The translations under genes and the position numbers were made by a program. From Microbacterium maritypicum (lineage in GTDB: Bacteria > Actinomycetota > Actinomycetes > Actinomycetales > Microbacteriaceae): 64,000 nt of DNA. Position 1 is the first letter of the stretch. Each line of letters begins with the position of its first letter. Below the pieces are notes generated by a model that worked only from the letters and a program-made list of their open reading frames with translations, was not told where the DNA came from and did not search any database. The DNA is taken from the NCBI RefSeq assembly GCF_041529975.1, contig NZ_CP168030.1, forward strand, positions 1,426,001 to 1,490,000, given 5' to 3'. This document shows, piece after piece, positions 14,032 to 39,655 of this stretch.

Positions 14032-14037
14032 AGTCTA
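14032..14037 (-). promoter_or_regulatory. -10 box of leaderless DUF4229 transcript
   Basis: TAGACT on the minus strand, 6 nt, GTG 14025. Confidence 0.65.
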
Positions 14038-14961
14038 CGTTCGCCGCGCAGGCGGCTCGGCGCCGGTGCCCTCGATGCCGAGTCGAGCGAACGAGATGCC
14101 GCGCACGACCCGGTGCCACGGATGCTCGCCGAGCGACCAGAGCAGCCCCGCGTTGATGTCGAGTGCCAGGTCTTCGCAGCCGACCGGGAGGGGCATGTCG
14201 TCCTGCTCCAGCGCCGACCGCGGCCCGCTCCACAGCGCACCGGGGCGCAGGCCGTCGGACTGTGAGACGAAGTGGCGGTCTCCCCACCGCACGGCGCCCT
14301 GCATGCGGGGGATGCCGGGGCTGAAGACGTGCTCCTCGGTGAACCGCCCGTCGGCGTCCTCCGGGATCGAGAACTCGCCGATCCGGCCGCTGTCGTCGGT
14401 GCGGTGCTCGCCGATGAGGACACGCCGCAGGGGAGTGCCGTCCTCGTCGAACACCCGACCCAGGTACGAGCAGCGCAGCGCGACGGGGTGCACGCGCGTG
14501 CGGACGGCGACGAGCGCCGTGGTACGACCGCGCCGAGGTCGCCCGCCGGCGATGCGCTGAGCGGCGGCGCCGCGGACCGTCCGCACGTCTGCGAGGTCGA
14601 ACTCCCAGATGCCGCGACCGGTCGCCGCGACGAAGAGTCGGTCGTCGAACCAGGCGAGTCCCCCGGCGTGGATCGGTGCCGGCTGCAGTTCGCCGCCGTC
14701 GTCGGGGACGGCGAGCAGCACGTCGAGGTGGCGGGAGCGCTCGAGGTCGACGAACGTCACGCGGGAGGCGAGATGCACGCCGTCGAGCTGTTGCCGGAAC
14801 CAGCTCACCGCCACGGTGCGTCGACCCCGCCACTCGCCGAGGTCGATGCCCTGCGGGTACCAGCGTCGGGTCCAGGTCCGGGCGGTCAGCCATCGCAGGT
14901 CCAGGGTGTCGCGCTGCTTCTGCCGCACCGGACGCCACGTCGATCCGAAGGGCCAGAGCAT
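14035..14961 (-). CDS. Hypothetical protein, possibly beta-propeller-like
   Basis: A 308-aa soluble protein I do not recognise. It has repeated beta-rich segments such as GGLAWFDDRLFVAATGRGIWEFDL and LALDINAGLLWSLGEHPW, suggesting blades of a propeller. There is no signal peptide. ATG 14961 is chosen over a longer open frame because the upstream part is a structured intergenic region; GACGAT lies 6 nt before the ATG (possible leaderless -10). It is divergent from the surface-glycan operon, and any role in that operon is speculation. Confidence 0.55.
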   Translation of the reverse strand: MLWPFGSTWRPVRQKQRDTLDLRWLTARTWTRRWYPQGIDLGEWRGRRTVAVSWFRQQLDGVHLASRVTFVDLERSRHLDVLLAVPDDGGELQPAPIHAGGLAWFDDRLFVAATGRGIWEFDLADVRTVRGAAAQRIAGGRPRRGRTTALVAVRTRVHPVALRCSYLGRVFDEDGTPLRRVLIGEHRTDDSGRIGEFSIPEDADGRFTEEHVFSPGIPRMQGAVRWGDRHFVSQSDGLRPGALWSGPRSALEQDDMPLPVGCEDLALDINAGLLWSLGEHPWHRVVRGISFARLGIEGTGAEPPARRT

Positions 14962-15366
14962 GCTCCCATCGTCGCCGATCGAACGGATCCTCGCGAACTC
15001 GACCGCGAGTCGAGCGCCGGATCTCGGCGTACGTACAGCTTCACGAAATGCGACATGTATTATGTTACGTGTCGTCGCGCGTATCTCTAGGGGGAGGGAG
15101 CGCGACGACACACAACGTCCCGGGTCCGGCTGATGGGGGTCAGCAGGGCACGAGGCGGGCGGGGCCATCATCGGTGGCCCCGCTCTCCGAACGCCTCGCG
15201 TTCGGCAGTGCGTAGCACTGGGAGGTGTGGCTCCGTTCGGGTACGGGGCCACACCTCACTGCGCACGGGCCGCAGCATCGGCGGACACCGGTCGTTCACC
15301 TCCAGGTCGCCGTCCGGCAACGGTGACCTGACACGATTCCGGGACACCGCCTCTCCCTGGAGCTCC
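14962..15366. other. 405-bp divergent intergenic region with promoter and hairpin array
   Basis: No convincing gene. AT-rich sequence around 15040-15070 (ATGTATTATGTTACG) stands out against the GC-rich background and could hold a plus-strand -10 element. It is followed by six consecutive inverted repeats up to the glycosyltransferase gene. Confidence 0.6.
15069..15330 (+). ncRNA. Candidate structured leader RNA with six hairpins
   Basis: Consecutive inverted repeats: 15069-15080/15100-15111 (12 bp), 15159-15167/15175-15183 (9 bp), 15187-15194/15198-15205 (8 bp, loop CTC), 15206-15211/15215-15220 (6 bp), 15222-15231/15248-15257 (10 bp), and 15303-15313/15320-15330 (11 bp with one G.U). If transcribed from the AT-rich promoter-like stretch near 15060, this forms a ~300-nt leader of the nonulosonate operon. 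It may act as attenuator or antitermination control. Not matched to a known family. Confidence 0.55.
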
Positions 15367-16347
15367 GTGCGCACACCGCTCGTCACCGTCATCCTGCCCG
15401 CGAAAGACGCCGGCGCGTACATCGGGACGACGCTCGAGACGCTCACCCGCCAGTTCGAGGATGCGTCGGCGCTCAAGCTCGTCGCGATCGACGACGGCTC
15501 ACGCGACGACACGGGTGCACTCATGCGCGCGTATGCCGAGCGGCTCCCGCGCGTCGAGGTCATCCGGAACCCGATCGCCCGGGGGCTCGCGACCGCCCGG
15601 AATCAGGGGCTGGAACGGGTCGAGGGCGACGCCTTCTGCTTCCTCGACGGCGACGACTGGATGCAGCCGCGGCGGCTCGAGGTGCTGGTGTCGCGATTGC
15701 GCGAACTGGACTGCGACTTCCTCCGCACCGACCACGTCACGGTCAGCGGAACGCACCGGGCGCTCGTGCGTGCCCCGCACCCGTGGCGTGAACGCGTGCT
15801 CGTTCCGAGGGAGGCGATCCTGCCCGAGAACGAATCCACGATGGTCGACTACCCCTACGCGTGGGCGGGTGTCTTCCACCGAAAAATCCTCGACGACGGG
15901 CTGGCACAGTTCCCGGAGGGACTGTTCACGGCGGAGGACCGACCCTGGATCTGGCGGCTCCATCTTCGCGCGCGGTCGTTCGCGGTCGTGGACGCGCCCG
16001 CGCTGCTCTACCGACGCGGTGTCGCGACATCCCTCACCCAGGCCAGGGATCGCCGCCAGCTCGACTTCGCCCGGGCGATGGACGAGGTCATCGCCGTCGT
16101 GGAGCAGGACGCGGAGGCGGAGCGCTTCCTGCCCAAGGTCGTGTGGACCGCGCTCGCGCTCAGCTCCCACCACCTGGTGCGTGCGCGTCGGATGCGTCCG
16201 CGGCTGCGCGCCGAGATGCGCGGCGGCATCCGGGACATGCTCCGCCGCCTGCCGGACGACGAACTCGACGAGACGCTCACGCGCTTCGACGGGCCGCGCC
16301 GGCGGGTGCTGGCGCGCGTTCTCCGACAGGCGGGGCGCACGGCATGA
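15367..16347 (+). CDS. GT-A (family 2) glycosyltransferase
   Basis: A 326-aa cytosolic GT2 enzyme. It starts RTPLVTVILPAKDAGAYIGTT and carries DDGSRDDT and the metal-binding DGDDWM segment (about 95-100), followed by an EDRPW acidic motif, as in sugar transferases for capsular or wall polysaccharides. GTG 15367 is chosen because the conserved domain begins immediately after it; GGAG lies 4 nt upstream. ATGA overlap with the next gene. It is the first gene of the nonulosonate operon. Donor and acceptor are unknown. Confidence 0.85.
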   Translation: MRTPLVTVILPAKDAGAYIGTTLETLTRQFEDASALKLVAIDDGSRDDTGALMRAYAERLPRVEVIRNPIARGLATARNQGLERVEGDAFCFLDGDDWMQPRRLEVLVSRLRELDCDFLRTDHVTVSGTHRALVRAPHPWRERVLVPREAILPENESTMVDYPYAWAGVFHRKILDDGLAQFPEGLFTAEDRPWIWRLHLRARSFAVVDAPALLYRRGVATSLTQARDRRQLDFARAMDEVIAVVEQDAEAERFLPKVVWTALALSSHHLVRARRMRPRLRAEMRGGIRDMLRRLPDDELDETLTRFDGPRRRVLARVLRQAGRTA

Positions 16348-17690
16348 CCCAGCTGTTCGCGCTGCACAGTGCGTACGGACTCGCCACGGCCGCCGCGGCG
16401 ATCGACGCCGGGCTCCTCGGCCGCGACGGCGGGGCGGAGCGCATCCTGGTGCCGTTCACCTCGAGCCGGGTGCCGGAGACGGCGGTCGGCATCGCGGGCG
16501 ACCCCGTGCTCGGGCCGCTGCGCGCGCGGTTCGACCGCGTCGAGCCGCTGGAAGATGTCCTCGGCCCGTTGCATCCGAGCTCGTGGGAACCCGCTGAGGC
16601 CGACCTCCCGATCCTGGAGCGGTTGCTCGTACGGGCGTGGCGACTCGATCCTCAGGGCCTGGAGCTGTTCGTGCAGAGCCCGCAGGTCGCGCCGGCCCGC
16701 ACCCTGATGGCGCTGTTCCCCTACGCGCGGATCACGATCGTGGGGGATGGGCTCATGACCTACTCGCCGATGCGGGTGCGGCTGCCGTATGCGGTCGCGG
16801 CGCGCATCGAACGCGTGGTCCATGCGGACGTGGTGCCCGGAGTGCGGCCGCTCGTCGGGTCCCCTCGTGCCGAGATCGTGCCGGTTCCTCCCGTTGCGTT
16901 CGCCGCGGCACTGCGGGAGACGGATGCCGGCGAATCGGGCACCGCGGACGACGCCTCCAGCGTGCTCGTCCTCGGCCAGTACCTGTCGGCGCTCGGACTC
17001 ATGACGCCCGCCGCGGAGGTCGACCTGCAGAAGCAGCTGATCGACCGCGCCGCGCGGTGGGCTCCGCAGCGCATCGTCTTCAAGCCGCACCCCGCCGCAC
17101 CGCCGCTGATGACCGCGGCGGTCCGCGACCGGGCGCACGTGCACGGAATCGACTTCGTCGAGTATCGCGGCCCGCTCGCGGCCGAGCTGCTCGCTGAACG
17201 ACTGGATGCGCTGGCCGTCGTCGCTGGGTTCTCGACCGCGTTGCCGACCGTGCACACGCTCTTCGGTCGGGCGATCGGATCGGCGGGCAACGACCGGGTG
17301 CTGGCGGCGCTGACGCCGTTCGAGAACAGCAACCGCATACCCGTGACCCTGGTCGATGCCCTCACCCGCGACGACGCGCCCTACAGCGACCCCGCCCGGC
17401 TGCAACTGCTGGTGGATGCCGTCGGCTACGCGATGCAGCCTGAGAACGCCGCCCACCTGCGCGGTCGCGCCGAAGAGCTGCTGCACGACCTGGACCCGGT
17501 CGAGCGGGATCGGTATTTCGCGCCACGACGGCTTGCGGAGCTGCGGCTGCCGGGAGCGCCGCGGGAGCGCGCCCTGAACCGTGCATTGCGCCCCGCCGGC
17601 GGAGTGGGCAGGGTCGAGGAGTGGCGGCTCCACGCCCTCGGCGCGCGGCGACGAGTCGGTCGTGCCTGGCGGGCGCTGCGCGGGCGATGA
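16344..17690 (+). CDS. Polysialyltransferase-family glycosyltransferase
   Basis: A 448-aa protein resembling bacterial polysialyl/nonulosonyl transferases (GT-B). The family signatures are recognisable: acidic-Gly motif GDG at 134-136 (E/D-D/E-G), KPHP at 247-250 (HP motif) and GFST near 295-298 (S-S/T motif). The basic Arg-rich C-terminus (about 400-448) is typical of membrane-associated transferases. It overlaps both neighbours by ATGA, so it is co-translated with the GT2 enzyme and the CMP-sugar synthetase. This supports transfer of a CMP-activated nonulosonic acid to a surface polymer. Confidence 0.78.
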   Translation: MTQLFALHSAYGLATAAAAIDAGLLGRDGGAERILVPFTSSRVPETAVGIAGDPVLGPLRARFDRVEPLEDVLGPLHPSSWEPAEADLPILERLLVRAWRLDPQGLELFVQSPQVAPARTLMALFPYARITIVGDGLMTYSPMRVRLPYAVAARIERVVHADVVPGVRPLVGSPRAEIVPVPPVAFAAALRETDAGESGTADDASSVLVLGQYLSALGLMTPAAEVDLQKQLIDRAARWAPQRIVFKPHPAAPPLMTAAVRDRAHVHGIDFVEYRGPLAAELLAERLDALAVVAGFSTALPTVHTLFGRAIGSAGNDRVLAALTPFENSNRIPVTLVDALTRDDAPYSDPARLQLLVDAVGYAMQPENAAHLRGRAEELLHDLDPVERDRYFAPRRLAELRLPGAPRERALNRALRPAGGVGRVEEWRLHALGARRRVGRAWRALRGR

Positions 17691-17722: not shown

Positions 17723-18892
17723 ATGAACGACATGGACGAGCAGCGGCCCCTCACGGTGGCGATCATCCCCGCGCGCGGCGGGTCGAAGCAGGTGCCGCGC
17801 AAGAACCTCCAGCGGGTGGGCGGAGTCCCGCTGGTCGAGCGTGCTGTTCGGGCGGCGACCGCGGCATCCGGCATCGACCTGGTCGTGGTGTCCACCGACG
17901 ATGACGAGATCGCCGCGGTCGCGAACACCGCGGGAGCCCGTGTCATCCGCCGCCCCGCCGAGCTCGCCGAAGACACTGCGACCTCGGAGAGCGCGATCCT
18001 GCATGCCCTCGACGAGCTCGAAGCAGCCGGAGAGAGGGTCGAGATCGTGGCGTTCCTGCAGGCGACGTCGCCGTTCATCCCGAGTGACGCGCTCGCCGCG
18101 GCCGTGGAGGAGATTCGTGCAGACCGCGCCGACAGCGTGTTCGCGGCCCATGAGACCTACGGATTCCTGTGGCGGGAAGACGACCGCGGTGAGGCGGTCG
18201 CGATCAACCACGAAGCCGCGCACCGCCCGCGGCGCCAGGACCGGGAGCCGCACCACCTCGAGACCGGCGCCTTCTATGTGTTCCGGGCCGCGGGGTTCCG
18301 TGAGAGCCGGCATCGGTTCTTCGGCAGGATCCGCATCGCTGCGGTGCCGGAGTGGACGGCGATCGAGATCGACGATGCGGATCAGCTCCGAGTCGCCCGT
18401 GCTCTCGCGACCCTGCACGAGGTTCCAGGGCGCATCCCGGTGCGGGCGGTCGTGACCGACTTCGACGGCGTGCACACCGACGACACCGCGATCATCGATG
18501 CAGACGGCGGGGAACGGGTGAGGGTCAGCCGCGAGGACGGGATGGGGGTTGCCCTGCTGCGCCGCGCCGGTGTGCCGCTGCTCATCCTGTCGACCGAGGT
18601 CAATCCCGTGGTCCGCGCCCGGGCGACGAAGCTCCGCGTTCCGGTGCTCCATGGCCTCGACGACAAGGAGACGGCACTGCGCGACTGGGCGCAGGAGAAC
18701 GACGTGCCGCTCGCCGACATCGCCTACCTCGGGAACGACGTCAACGACCTTCCGGCGATGCGGATCGTGGGCTGGCCGGTCGCGGTCGCCAACGCACATC
18801 CGCTCGTGATCGAGGAGGCCCGTGTGGTGCTGCGCCGGCGCGGCGGCGAGGGTGCGGTGAGGGAGCTGATCGAACGGGTGTTGTCGAGCTGA
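17687..18892 (+). CDS. CMP-nonulosonate synthetase fused to KdsC-like HAD phosphatase
   Basis: Up to 401 aa in two domains. Residues about 21-245 are a cytidylyltransferase with IPARGGSKQVPRKN, the CTP-binding signature of NeuA/KdsB-type enzymes. Residues about 252-401 are a C0-type HAD domain with DFDGVHTDD nucleophile motif, STE (motif II) and GNDVND (motif IV). The fusion would dephosphorylate a nonulosonate 9-phosphate and activate the free acid with CTP. The start is ambiguous within the tandem repeat: ATG 17687 overlaps the upstream stop, and ATG 17732 has GAGG 9 nt upstream. NeuA-HAD fusions are known in the family. Confidence 0.85.
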   Translation: MTMTTRMTMTTRMNDMDEQRPLTVAIIPARGGSKQVPRKNLQRVGGVPLVERAVRAATAASGIDLVVVSTDDDEIAAVANTAGARVIRRPAELAEDTATSESAILHALDELEAAGERVEIVAFLQATSPFIPSDALAAAVEEIRADRADSVFAAHETYGFLWREDDRGEAVAINHEAAHRPRRQDREPHHLETGAFYVFRAAGFRESRHRFFGRIRIAAVPEWTAIEIDDADQLRVARALATLHEVPGRIPVRAVVTDFDGVHTDDTAIIDADGGERVRVSREDGMGVALLRRAGVPLLILSTEVNPVVRARATKLRVPVLHGLDDKETALRDWAQENDVPLADIAYLGNDVNDLPAMRIVGWPVAVANAHPLVIEEARVVLRRRGGEGAVRELIERVLSS

Positions 18893-18985: not shown

Positions 18986-19858
18986 ATGACTGTCAGCATC
19001 GGCTCACGAGTGATCGGCGGCGGTCGTCCCGCCTATGTCATCGCCGAGATCGGACTCAATCACAACGGCGATGTCGACATCGCGAAGAAGCTCATCGACG
19101 TCGCAGCCCGCGCCGGCGCCGATGCGGTGAAGTTCCAGAAGCGCACGCCCGAGATCTCCACTCCCGAGCACATGCGCGACGTTCCGCGTGAGACGCCGTG
19201 GGGCGTCATGAGCTACCTCGACTACCGCCGTCGCGTCGAGTTCGGCCGCGACGAGTACGTCGAGATCGGCGATCACGCCACCATGCTCGGCCTGGACTGG
19301 TTCGCGTCGCCGTGGGACGTGCCGAGCGTCGACTTCCTCGAAGACCTCAACGTGGTGGCGCACAAGGTCGCCTCGGCCAGCCTCACCGATACCGAGCTGC
19401 TGGTCGCCCTGCGCGAGACGGGCAAGCCCGTCATCCTCTCGACCGGCATGTCGACCATCGAGCAGATCGACCGGGCGCTCGACACGCTCGGCACCGACCG
19501 GGTGGTCCTCATGCACGCGACCTCGACCTACCCGCTCGAGCCCGAAGAGGCGAACCTGCGCGTGATCGCCACCCTGCGCGACCGCTACCCGGGTGTGCCC
19601 GTCGGCTACTCGGGGCACGAGCGCGGCCTGCAGATCTCCCTCGCCGCGGTGGCCATCGGCGCAGTCGCGGTCGAGCGCCACATCACGCTCGACCGCACGA
19701 TGTGGGGCTCCGACCACGCGGCCTCCCTCGAGCCGACCGGTCTCGAGCACCTGGTGCGCGATATCCGCGTGATCGAGCGCGCGACCGGCGACGGGGTCAA
19801 GCGCGTGTTCGACAGCGAGCGCGCGCCGATGGCGAAGCTGCGCCGCGTCTCCGCATGA
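18986..19858 (+). CDS. NeuB-family nonulosonate synthase, SAF domain absent
   Basis: A 290-aa PEP-condensing TIM-barrel enzyme: AEIGLNHNGDVDIAKKLI, KFQKRTPE, GYSGHERG and ERHITLDR are typical NeuB motifs. It condenses PEP with ManNAc, a 6-phosphate or mannose-6-phosphate to sialic acid, Neu5Ac-9-P or Kdn-9-P. Standard NeuB is about 340-350 aa with a C-terminal SAF domain; this one stops after the barrel. CGGAGG lies 4 nt before ATG 18986. The fused HAD phosphatase in the previous gene hints at a phosphorylated product. No NeuC epimerase is present nearby, so Kdn is a reasonable candidate. Confidence 0.85.
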   Translation: MTVSIGSRVIGGGRPAYVIAEIGLNHNGDVDIAKKLIDVAARAGADAVKFQKRTPEISTPEHMRDVPRETPWGVMSYLDYRRRVEFGRDEYVEIGDHATMLGLDWFASPWDVPSVDFLEDLNVVAHKVASASLTDTELLVALRETGKPVILSTGMSTIEQIDRALDTLGTDRVVLMHATSTYPLEPEEANLRVIATLRDRYPGVPVGYSGHERGLQISLAAVAIGAVAVERHITLDRTMWGSDHAASLEPTGLEHLVRDIRVIERATGDGVKRVFDSERAPMAKLRRVSA

Positions 19859-39620: not shown

Positions 39621-39655
39621 CTTGATTAACTTTAGCGCATCTAAAGTTAATCAAG
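39621..39655. promoter_or_regulatory. 35-bp perfect palindrome upstream of the Fic gene
   Basis: CTTGATTAACTTTAG, spacer cgcat, CTAAAGTTAATCAAG: 15-bp perfect arms, strikingly AT-rich in this genome. It is 31 bp upstream of the Fic start, and its right arm includes the TetR stop codon (39651-39653). Likely operator/promoter for Fic and possibly a terminator for TetR. Confidence 0.8.

Follow-up and report, generated by a model that had tools for sequence, protein, structure and literature searches.

A candidate six-hairpin RNA gene beside a nonulosonate operon in Microbacterium

The action of both LoaP and RfaH needs a NusG paralogue, and CsrA-binding RNAs of the CsrB/RsmZ type are defined by GGA in hairpin loops. 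Leader hairpins connected with LoaP are described for dfn and mln of Bacillus velezensis in PMC12691694, which also reports LoaP from Actinomycetota. As outlined in PMC8164766, ANTAR-target RNAs consist of two stems with hexaloops carrying A1 and G4, and such RNAs have been predicted in Microbacterium.

In the window (the whole stretch of DNA that was analysed, 64 kb), inverted repeats lying side by side occupy 15069-15330, between a divergent gene and a nonulosonate operon. Our comparison across loci points to a non-coding RNA gene in its own right, about 180-200 nt long and on the plus strand, with its own -10 element and most likely acting in trans, and we regard this reading as probable. 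The genes that frame it are as follows.

14035-14961, minus strand: divergent gene beside the RNA (308-aa ORF; no Pfam or NCBIfam match; a homologue at 25/25 RNA loci)
15367-16347, plus strand: glycosyltransferase, family 2, first operon gene (326 aa; Pfam PF00535, E 8.1e-28; GTG start chosen by eye)
16344-17690, plus strand: second operon gene (448 aa; no NCBIfam match)
17723-18892, plus strand: cytidylyltransferase and HAD phosphatase fusion of NeuA/PseF type (best models PseF and KDN-9-phosphatase, both below their cut-offs)
18986-19858, plus strand: nonulosonate synthase of NeuB type (TIGR03569, E 5.1e-77, below cut-off)

Hairpin density and distribution of the element

The segment 15060-15366 folded with a minimum free energy (MFE) of -182.1 kcal/mol, against -139.9 +/- 5.6 in 100 dinucleotide shuffles (z -7.6), none of which was as low. 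A structure scan with a linear GC correction covered 2552 windows of 200 nt on both strands of the 64 kb, and its top four windows all started at 15001-15151 on the plus strand (z -3.3 to -4.2); when energies were left uncorrected, window 15151 (+) came second, behind window 8401 (-), a stretch of 80% GC. The original prediction had called this density of hairpins unmatched in the window, which holds once GC is allowed for, since the top four corrected windows all lie here, but not by raw energy. Elsewhere in this GC-rich window, a perfect 15-bp inverted repeat with a 5-nt loop at 39621-39655 (CTTGATTAACTTTAG) forms a contrast by being AT-rich.

Six consecutive hairpins had been predicted. The adjacent inverted repeats are real and conserved as RNA, but the last of the predicted stems (15303-15313/15320-15330) is not conserved: all 11 of its pairs form only here and in one genome of the same species, whereas the other 41 loci keep 3-10 of the 11, and full pairing in only 2/43 loci places this stem outside the conserved RNA. 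The conserved RNA consists of six hairpins, P1 to P6 (15069-15257), of which P2 seems to have been missing from the predicted stems, and conservation across loci ends a few bases 3' of P6, at about 15257-15265. The features of the region are these.

15058-15063, plus strand: putative -10 TATTAT of the RNA gene, within GTATTATGTTAC (15057-15068)
15069-15111, plus strand: P1 hairpin, from the MFE fold (other loci, folded on their own, form a corresponding hairpin with another sequence)
15117-15156, plus strand: P2 hairpin, GCUGAU-GGGG-GUCAGC (both-side changes in 6/16 pairs)
15157-15185, plus strand: P3 hairpin, fast evolving (both-side changes in 11/12 pairs; 89.2% of cells paired)
15187-15205, plus strand: P4 hairpin (both-side changes in 3/8 pairs; 99.4% of cells paired)
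15206-15220, plus strand: P5 hairpin (stem CAGTGC/GCACTG invariant, 6/6 pairs constant)
15222-15257, plus strand: P6 hairpin, conserved 3' end of the element (both-side changes in 2/15 pairs; 98.7% of cells paired)
15294-15337, plus strand: the glycosyltransferase gene's own upstream element (GTTCACC at 15294-15300; -10-like CACGAT at 15332-15337)
15303-15330, plus strand: inverted repeat inside the operon's upstream element, not conserved as a stem

Of 98 related genomes searched at the DNA level, 8 gave matches, and these all belong to the same genus: five carried the element, one (L006) matched over the downstream part only, and two had short matches of 24-38 bases. Covariance model R1 (P2-P6) found the element in 25/366 genomes of the genus, including that of the window, and model R2, built from 23 loci, returned the same 25 together with two weak matches, in G295 (E 0.03) and G325 (E 0.007). 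Under strict filters, which lose weak matches, two overlapping draws from the family, of 249 (R1) and 239 (R2) genomes, gave no element besides that of the window's own genome. In an order draw of 297 genomes, also strictly filtered, only three further matches appeared, and their E-values of 0.0017-0.0056 are chance level across that number of genomes. In addition, a strict pattern applied to 84,980 species genomes gave 15 matches, 14 of which were confirmed by the model; these carriers were Microbacterium oxydans, M. maritypicum, M. algeriense, M. sufflavum, further Microbacterium and one Micrococcales MAG. Strain NBRC 15586 of M. oxydans is among the carriers found by this pattern. The verrucomicrobial match (L047) had no model match and was attributed to chance.

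All 25 carriers have one element per genome, adjoining the same divergent gene, so that its place beside that gene is well established by the comparison. A tree of the divergent gene was built from 43 of the 45 loci (L061 and L073, in whose fetched 1.5 kb this gene is missing, are not part of it), and in this tree the RNA carriers form two clades, labelled A and B below, one with 16 rows and one with 9. The tree needs two changes; since its well-supported branches force only one, a single origin with losses and two separate gains both fit.

In Rfam 15, no family reached its cut-off in the window and five loci, and the best match over the element was cold-seep-1, on the opposite strand, with a score of 24.4 bits where 125.8 would be required. 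A blastn search with the element gave no match in 72,556 plasmid and 50,697 phage records, and the viral contigs searched held no match to its pattern. Among the matches listed from open-access journal papers on small RNAs of Microbacterium and actinobacteria and on Microbacterium riboswitches, no description of the element was found, and the same body of papers gave no match on nonulosonic acid in Microbacterium. If our reading is true, the RNA would add a new family of small RNAs to a genus for which, among the matches listed, no small RNA is described besides the predicted ANTAR-target RNAs outlined in PMC8164766. With a calibrated model, a strand, a likely start and named carriers, the element can be tested at once.

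Covariation, strand and ends of the RNA

The first alignment, of five loci, already gave a common fold in which 16/73 pairs were changed on both sides. The counts given below for promoter-motif columns, loops, covariation and GU and AC cells are based on 23 of the 25 loci (21 distinct sequences), the near-copies L019 (of L018) and L026 (of L025) being omitted. Over P2-P6, 95.5% of the cells in the 21 distinct sequences were paired and 22/57 pairs showed changes on both sides, in an alignment that was fitted to the covariance model and so favours structure; alignments made by sequence alone yielded the same kind of consensus structure. Cells changed on both sides numbered 94, against 31.5 expected. 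None of 500 shuffles matched the observed values on any of five measures, with the reservation that column shuffles ignore kinship and that related sequences can beat them without structure, and when the partners were slid by 1-3 columns, pairing fell to 35-46%. Compensatory changes therefore keep the pairing in P2, P3, P4 and P6 beyond both the shuffle and the slide controls. P5 itself gains no support from covariation because its pairs never vary, and the counts cover P2-P6, P1 lying outside the model. Covarying stems in Microbacterium homologues, which the original prediction had named as its own test, are thus borne out by these 22 pairs.

Consensus structures derived separately for each strand scored -105.0 (+) vs -60.8 (-) in clade B and -94.9 (+) vs -57.1 (-) in clade A. 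In the fitted alignment there were 154 GU cells vs 8 AC cells, and the plus strand folded lower in 21/21 distinct sequences. A minus-strand RNA is rejected on these three grounds, the weak minus-strand model matches at the same place being due to the palindromic stems of the element. As far as comparison of loci can establish it, the region carries an RNA structure under selection, and its strand is the plus strand. In many loci the element is traversed by open frames, one of which in the window continues into the glycosyltransferase gene; a small-protein reading was ruled out because the distance from the P2 loop to P5 (66-71 nt) is not constant modulo 3, all three remainders occurring.

The P2 loop is GGGG in 23/23 loci, and the P6 loop is UCGGGU in 22/23. 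P4 is capped by UUCG or CUCG in clade B, mostly by a 3-nt loop in clade A and by CUC in this window. Loci folded singly without a long tail gave the hairpins P2-P6 and a P1 equivalent. With a longer 3' tail, P5 was displaced by pairing with the sequence after P6 in 6/23 loci, and P4 was rearranged in one of the 23. The outermost 5' and 3' bases pair with each other in 7/8 rows of clade B and so enclose the array, as expected for a discrete RNA; in clade A such pairing is weak or absent.

The putative promoter motif of the RNA has 9/12 columns invariant in 23/23 aligned loci of both clades, with TATTAT, TATCAT, TATCGT or TATAAT as the -10 hexamer. The RNA is preceded by GTATNNTGTTAC, which occurs once in the whole genome; one of the 25 loci has GTATNNTTTTAC instead. 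One carrier (L024, 1440-1655) combines a perfect TATAAT at the RNA promoter with a 4-nt P5 loop. A consensus scan of 14940-15420 found no sigma-70 promoter and no -35, either at the RNA or at the operon module, and no U-tract or intrinsic terminator was found in the same interval; both ends of the RNA are for this reason placed by conservation, which would put its start at about 15067-15071.

The RNA and the nonulosonate operon

If the hairpins were a leader acting in cis, transcription would run from 15058-15063 through them into the operon and would be subject to attenuation or antitermination. The arrangement fits such a leader, in that the glycosyltransferase gene follows the RNA on the same strand in 23/25 carriers, starting 102-154 nt after P6, and no canonical terminator lies between RNA and operon in the window. 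However, the two come apart in both directions. In G240 and G298 (loci L074, 6635-7929, and L075, 6094-7428), the RNA is intact and the whole nonulosonate operon is missing. There the divergent gene is followed by RNA, SDR and tRNA-Met in this order; the related G184 and G281 carry the complete operon between the RNA and SDR/tRNA-Met. Alignments of operon-less with operon-bearing loci are continuous through the RNA and break directly after it. No glycosyltransferase at E <= 1e-60 was found in G240 or G298, nor was NeuB, in a search that had no positive control of its own but whose query protein matches G184 and G281 at 96% (tblastn).

The RNAs of G240 and G298 scored 105.3 and 97.6 with the model; the seven operon-bearing members of the clade span 97.7-111.8, so that the first score lies inside this range and the second at its lower border. 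The two genomes are not sisters in the divergent-gene tree, where the branches concerned have modest to weak support. A comparison of L028, which has no operon, with L029 shows 12 differences over 209 aligned positions. Of these, 7 fall inside the RNA: 3 at unpaired positions, 3 that leave a pair intact and 1 that disrupts a pair. The operon losses could be recent, and with so few differences the intact RNA at this locus is only moderate proof of retained function.

The converse is also seen. The first operon gene (E <= 1e-60) is present in 116/366 genomes, of which 23 have an RNA match and 93 do not. Upstream regions were fetched for 20 of these 93, nearly all of them the top ones by similarity and not a random draw: in 18 the neighbour is again the divergent gene and the intergenic region is much shorter, and in 2 no divergent gene lies within 1.5 kb. 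The only match that the RNA model gave in these 20 loci had 10.2 bits (E 0.42), and the RNA-bearing loci resemble the RNA-less intergenic region plus an extra segment. In L061 (G228) and L073 (G110), the glycosyltransferase gene and GTTCACC stand apart from the divergent gene, after genes that by eye are ABC transporter ATPase-like, and gene and element may travel together. An RNA without the operon and a first gene without the RNA, both seen directly by comparing loci, contradict the original view of the hairpins as the leader of the nonulosonate operon; what stands of the proposed new actinobacterial leader RNA is a new structured RNA with covarying stems.

In addition, the operon has an upstream element separate from the RNA. 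GTTCACC lies upstream of the glycosyltransferase gene in 43/43 loci, 23 with the RNA and 20 without. Its distance from a fixed coding anchor is 86-90 nt in 41 loci and 69 nt in two, and a [CG]AC[CG]AT hexamer follows it at a fixed offset in 36/43 (both counts exclude the operon-less L028 and L033). This conserved element downstream of the hairpins points to a predicted operon start downstream of 15330, which the original prediction had named as an outcome that would refute it. The natural reading is that there are two modules, the RNA gene and then the operon promoter downstream, and the stem at 15303-15330 belongs to the operon-promoter module. Operon loss and the fixed distance of the upstream element make RNA and operon separable here, which warns against taking every structured element in front of an operon for its leader.

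GTTCACC is also the PHO motif of S. coelicolor, where it occurs in 11-nt direct repeats according to the description in PMC4415409. In our loci the first unit is exact in 43/43 and the second repeat is degenerate; in the window's own genome, GTTCACCTGCCGTTCACC lies upstream of a PstS-like gene (PstS match below the NCBIfam cut-off). This suggests that the operon element is PHO-box-like and that the surface-sugar operon may be under phosphate control across the genus, which, given the degenerate second repeat, is a lead and not a result.

A single PF02357 match in the whole genome, that is, one NusG, means that no LoaP or RfaH paralogue is present, and the originally drawn analogy with LoaP/RfaH antitermination fails for want of the protein it requires. 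Operon-free RNAs, RNA-free operons, an element of the operon's own and the single NusG led us to reject an operon leader or antiterminator as the main role, and we consider a cis leader unlikely. A combination of both, with an independent RNA and some read-through that gives the operon a second promoter in RNA-bearing species, would accommodate the shared strand and close spacing in 23/25 carriers and the missing U-tract terminator, but the gap from P6 to GTTCACC varies from 28 nt (in L029) to 80 nt, which argues against a tuned link, and this combination appears somewhat less likely still. An element acting at the DNA level, be it a protein site, a cruciform or the remnant of a small mobile element, would suit the dense palindromes and the extra segment of the RNA-bearing loci, but is highly improbable given the strand asymmetry, with G-U (a mismatch in DNA) accepted far more often than A-C, the single place per genome beside the same neighbour gene in 25/25 carriers and the want of any match in the plasmid, phage and viral sequences searched.

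Under the preferred reading of an independent RNA gene, transcription would start on the plus strand from its own promoter, and the RNA would fold into a compact six-hairpin array ending shortly after P6, at about 15261-15267. As a stable structured RNA it would then act in trans, with the GGGG loop, the P5 stem and P6 with its UCGGGU binding a protein or target RNAs, and with the fast-changing stems P1 and P3 as scaffold. We infer that the RNA is transcribed, where exactly it starts and ends and how it acts; trans action would probably proceed through the P2 loop and the P5-P6 core. The complete picture, of a genus-restricted and nearly fully paired six-hairpin RNA that acts in trans via two invariant G-rich loops and an invariant P5-P6 core, as an RNP or regulator, and is retained upon operon loss, is offered as a tentative one.

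Comparison with known systems

The locus resembles LoaP systems in having a structured RNA before a biosynthetic operon and, in clade B, in the UUCG/CUCG of the P4 loop. It differs from them in that there is no NusG paralogue, the RNA also occurs without the operon, and no intrinsic terminator was found; a UNCG-type P4 loop is likewise absent in this window and from the mostly 3-nt loops of clade A. With JUMPStart/ops-RfaH it shares the position before a surface-sugar operon, but it has neither ops nor a second NusG-type gene. The best ops-like site in the region (15268-15278) has 2 mismatches, and the window holds 78 matches at that level vs 78.8 expected, so that an ops sequence is dismissed as a chance match, in agreement with the original prediction that none is recognisable.

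Like CsrB/RsmZ, the candidate is an array of small hairpins in a single RNA, and the genome encodes CsrA (74.3 bits); in contrast to those RNAs, GGA is fully unpaired in only 1/23 RNAs and touches a hairpin loop in 4/23. A CsrA sponge was rejected because GGA loops are absent even though CsrA is encoded. With the ANTAR-target RNAs the element shares its nature as an actinobacterial stem-loop RNA, and it is set apart from them by having six stems, by loop lengths of 3-8 nt, by the GGGG of P2 and by a P6 hexaloop, UCGGGU, with U1.
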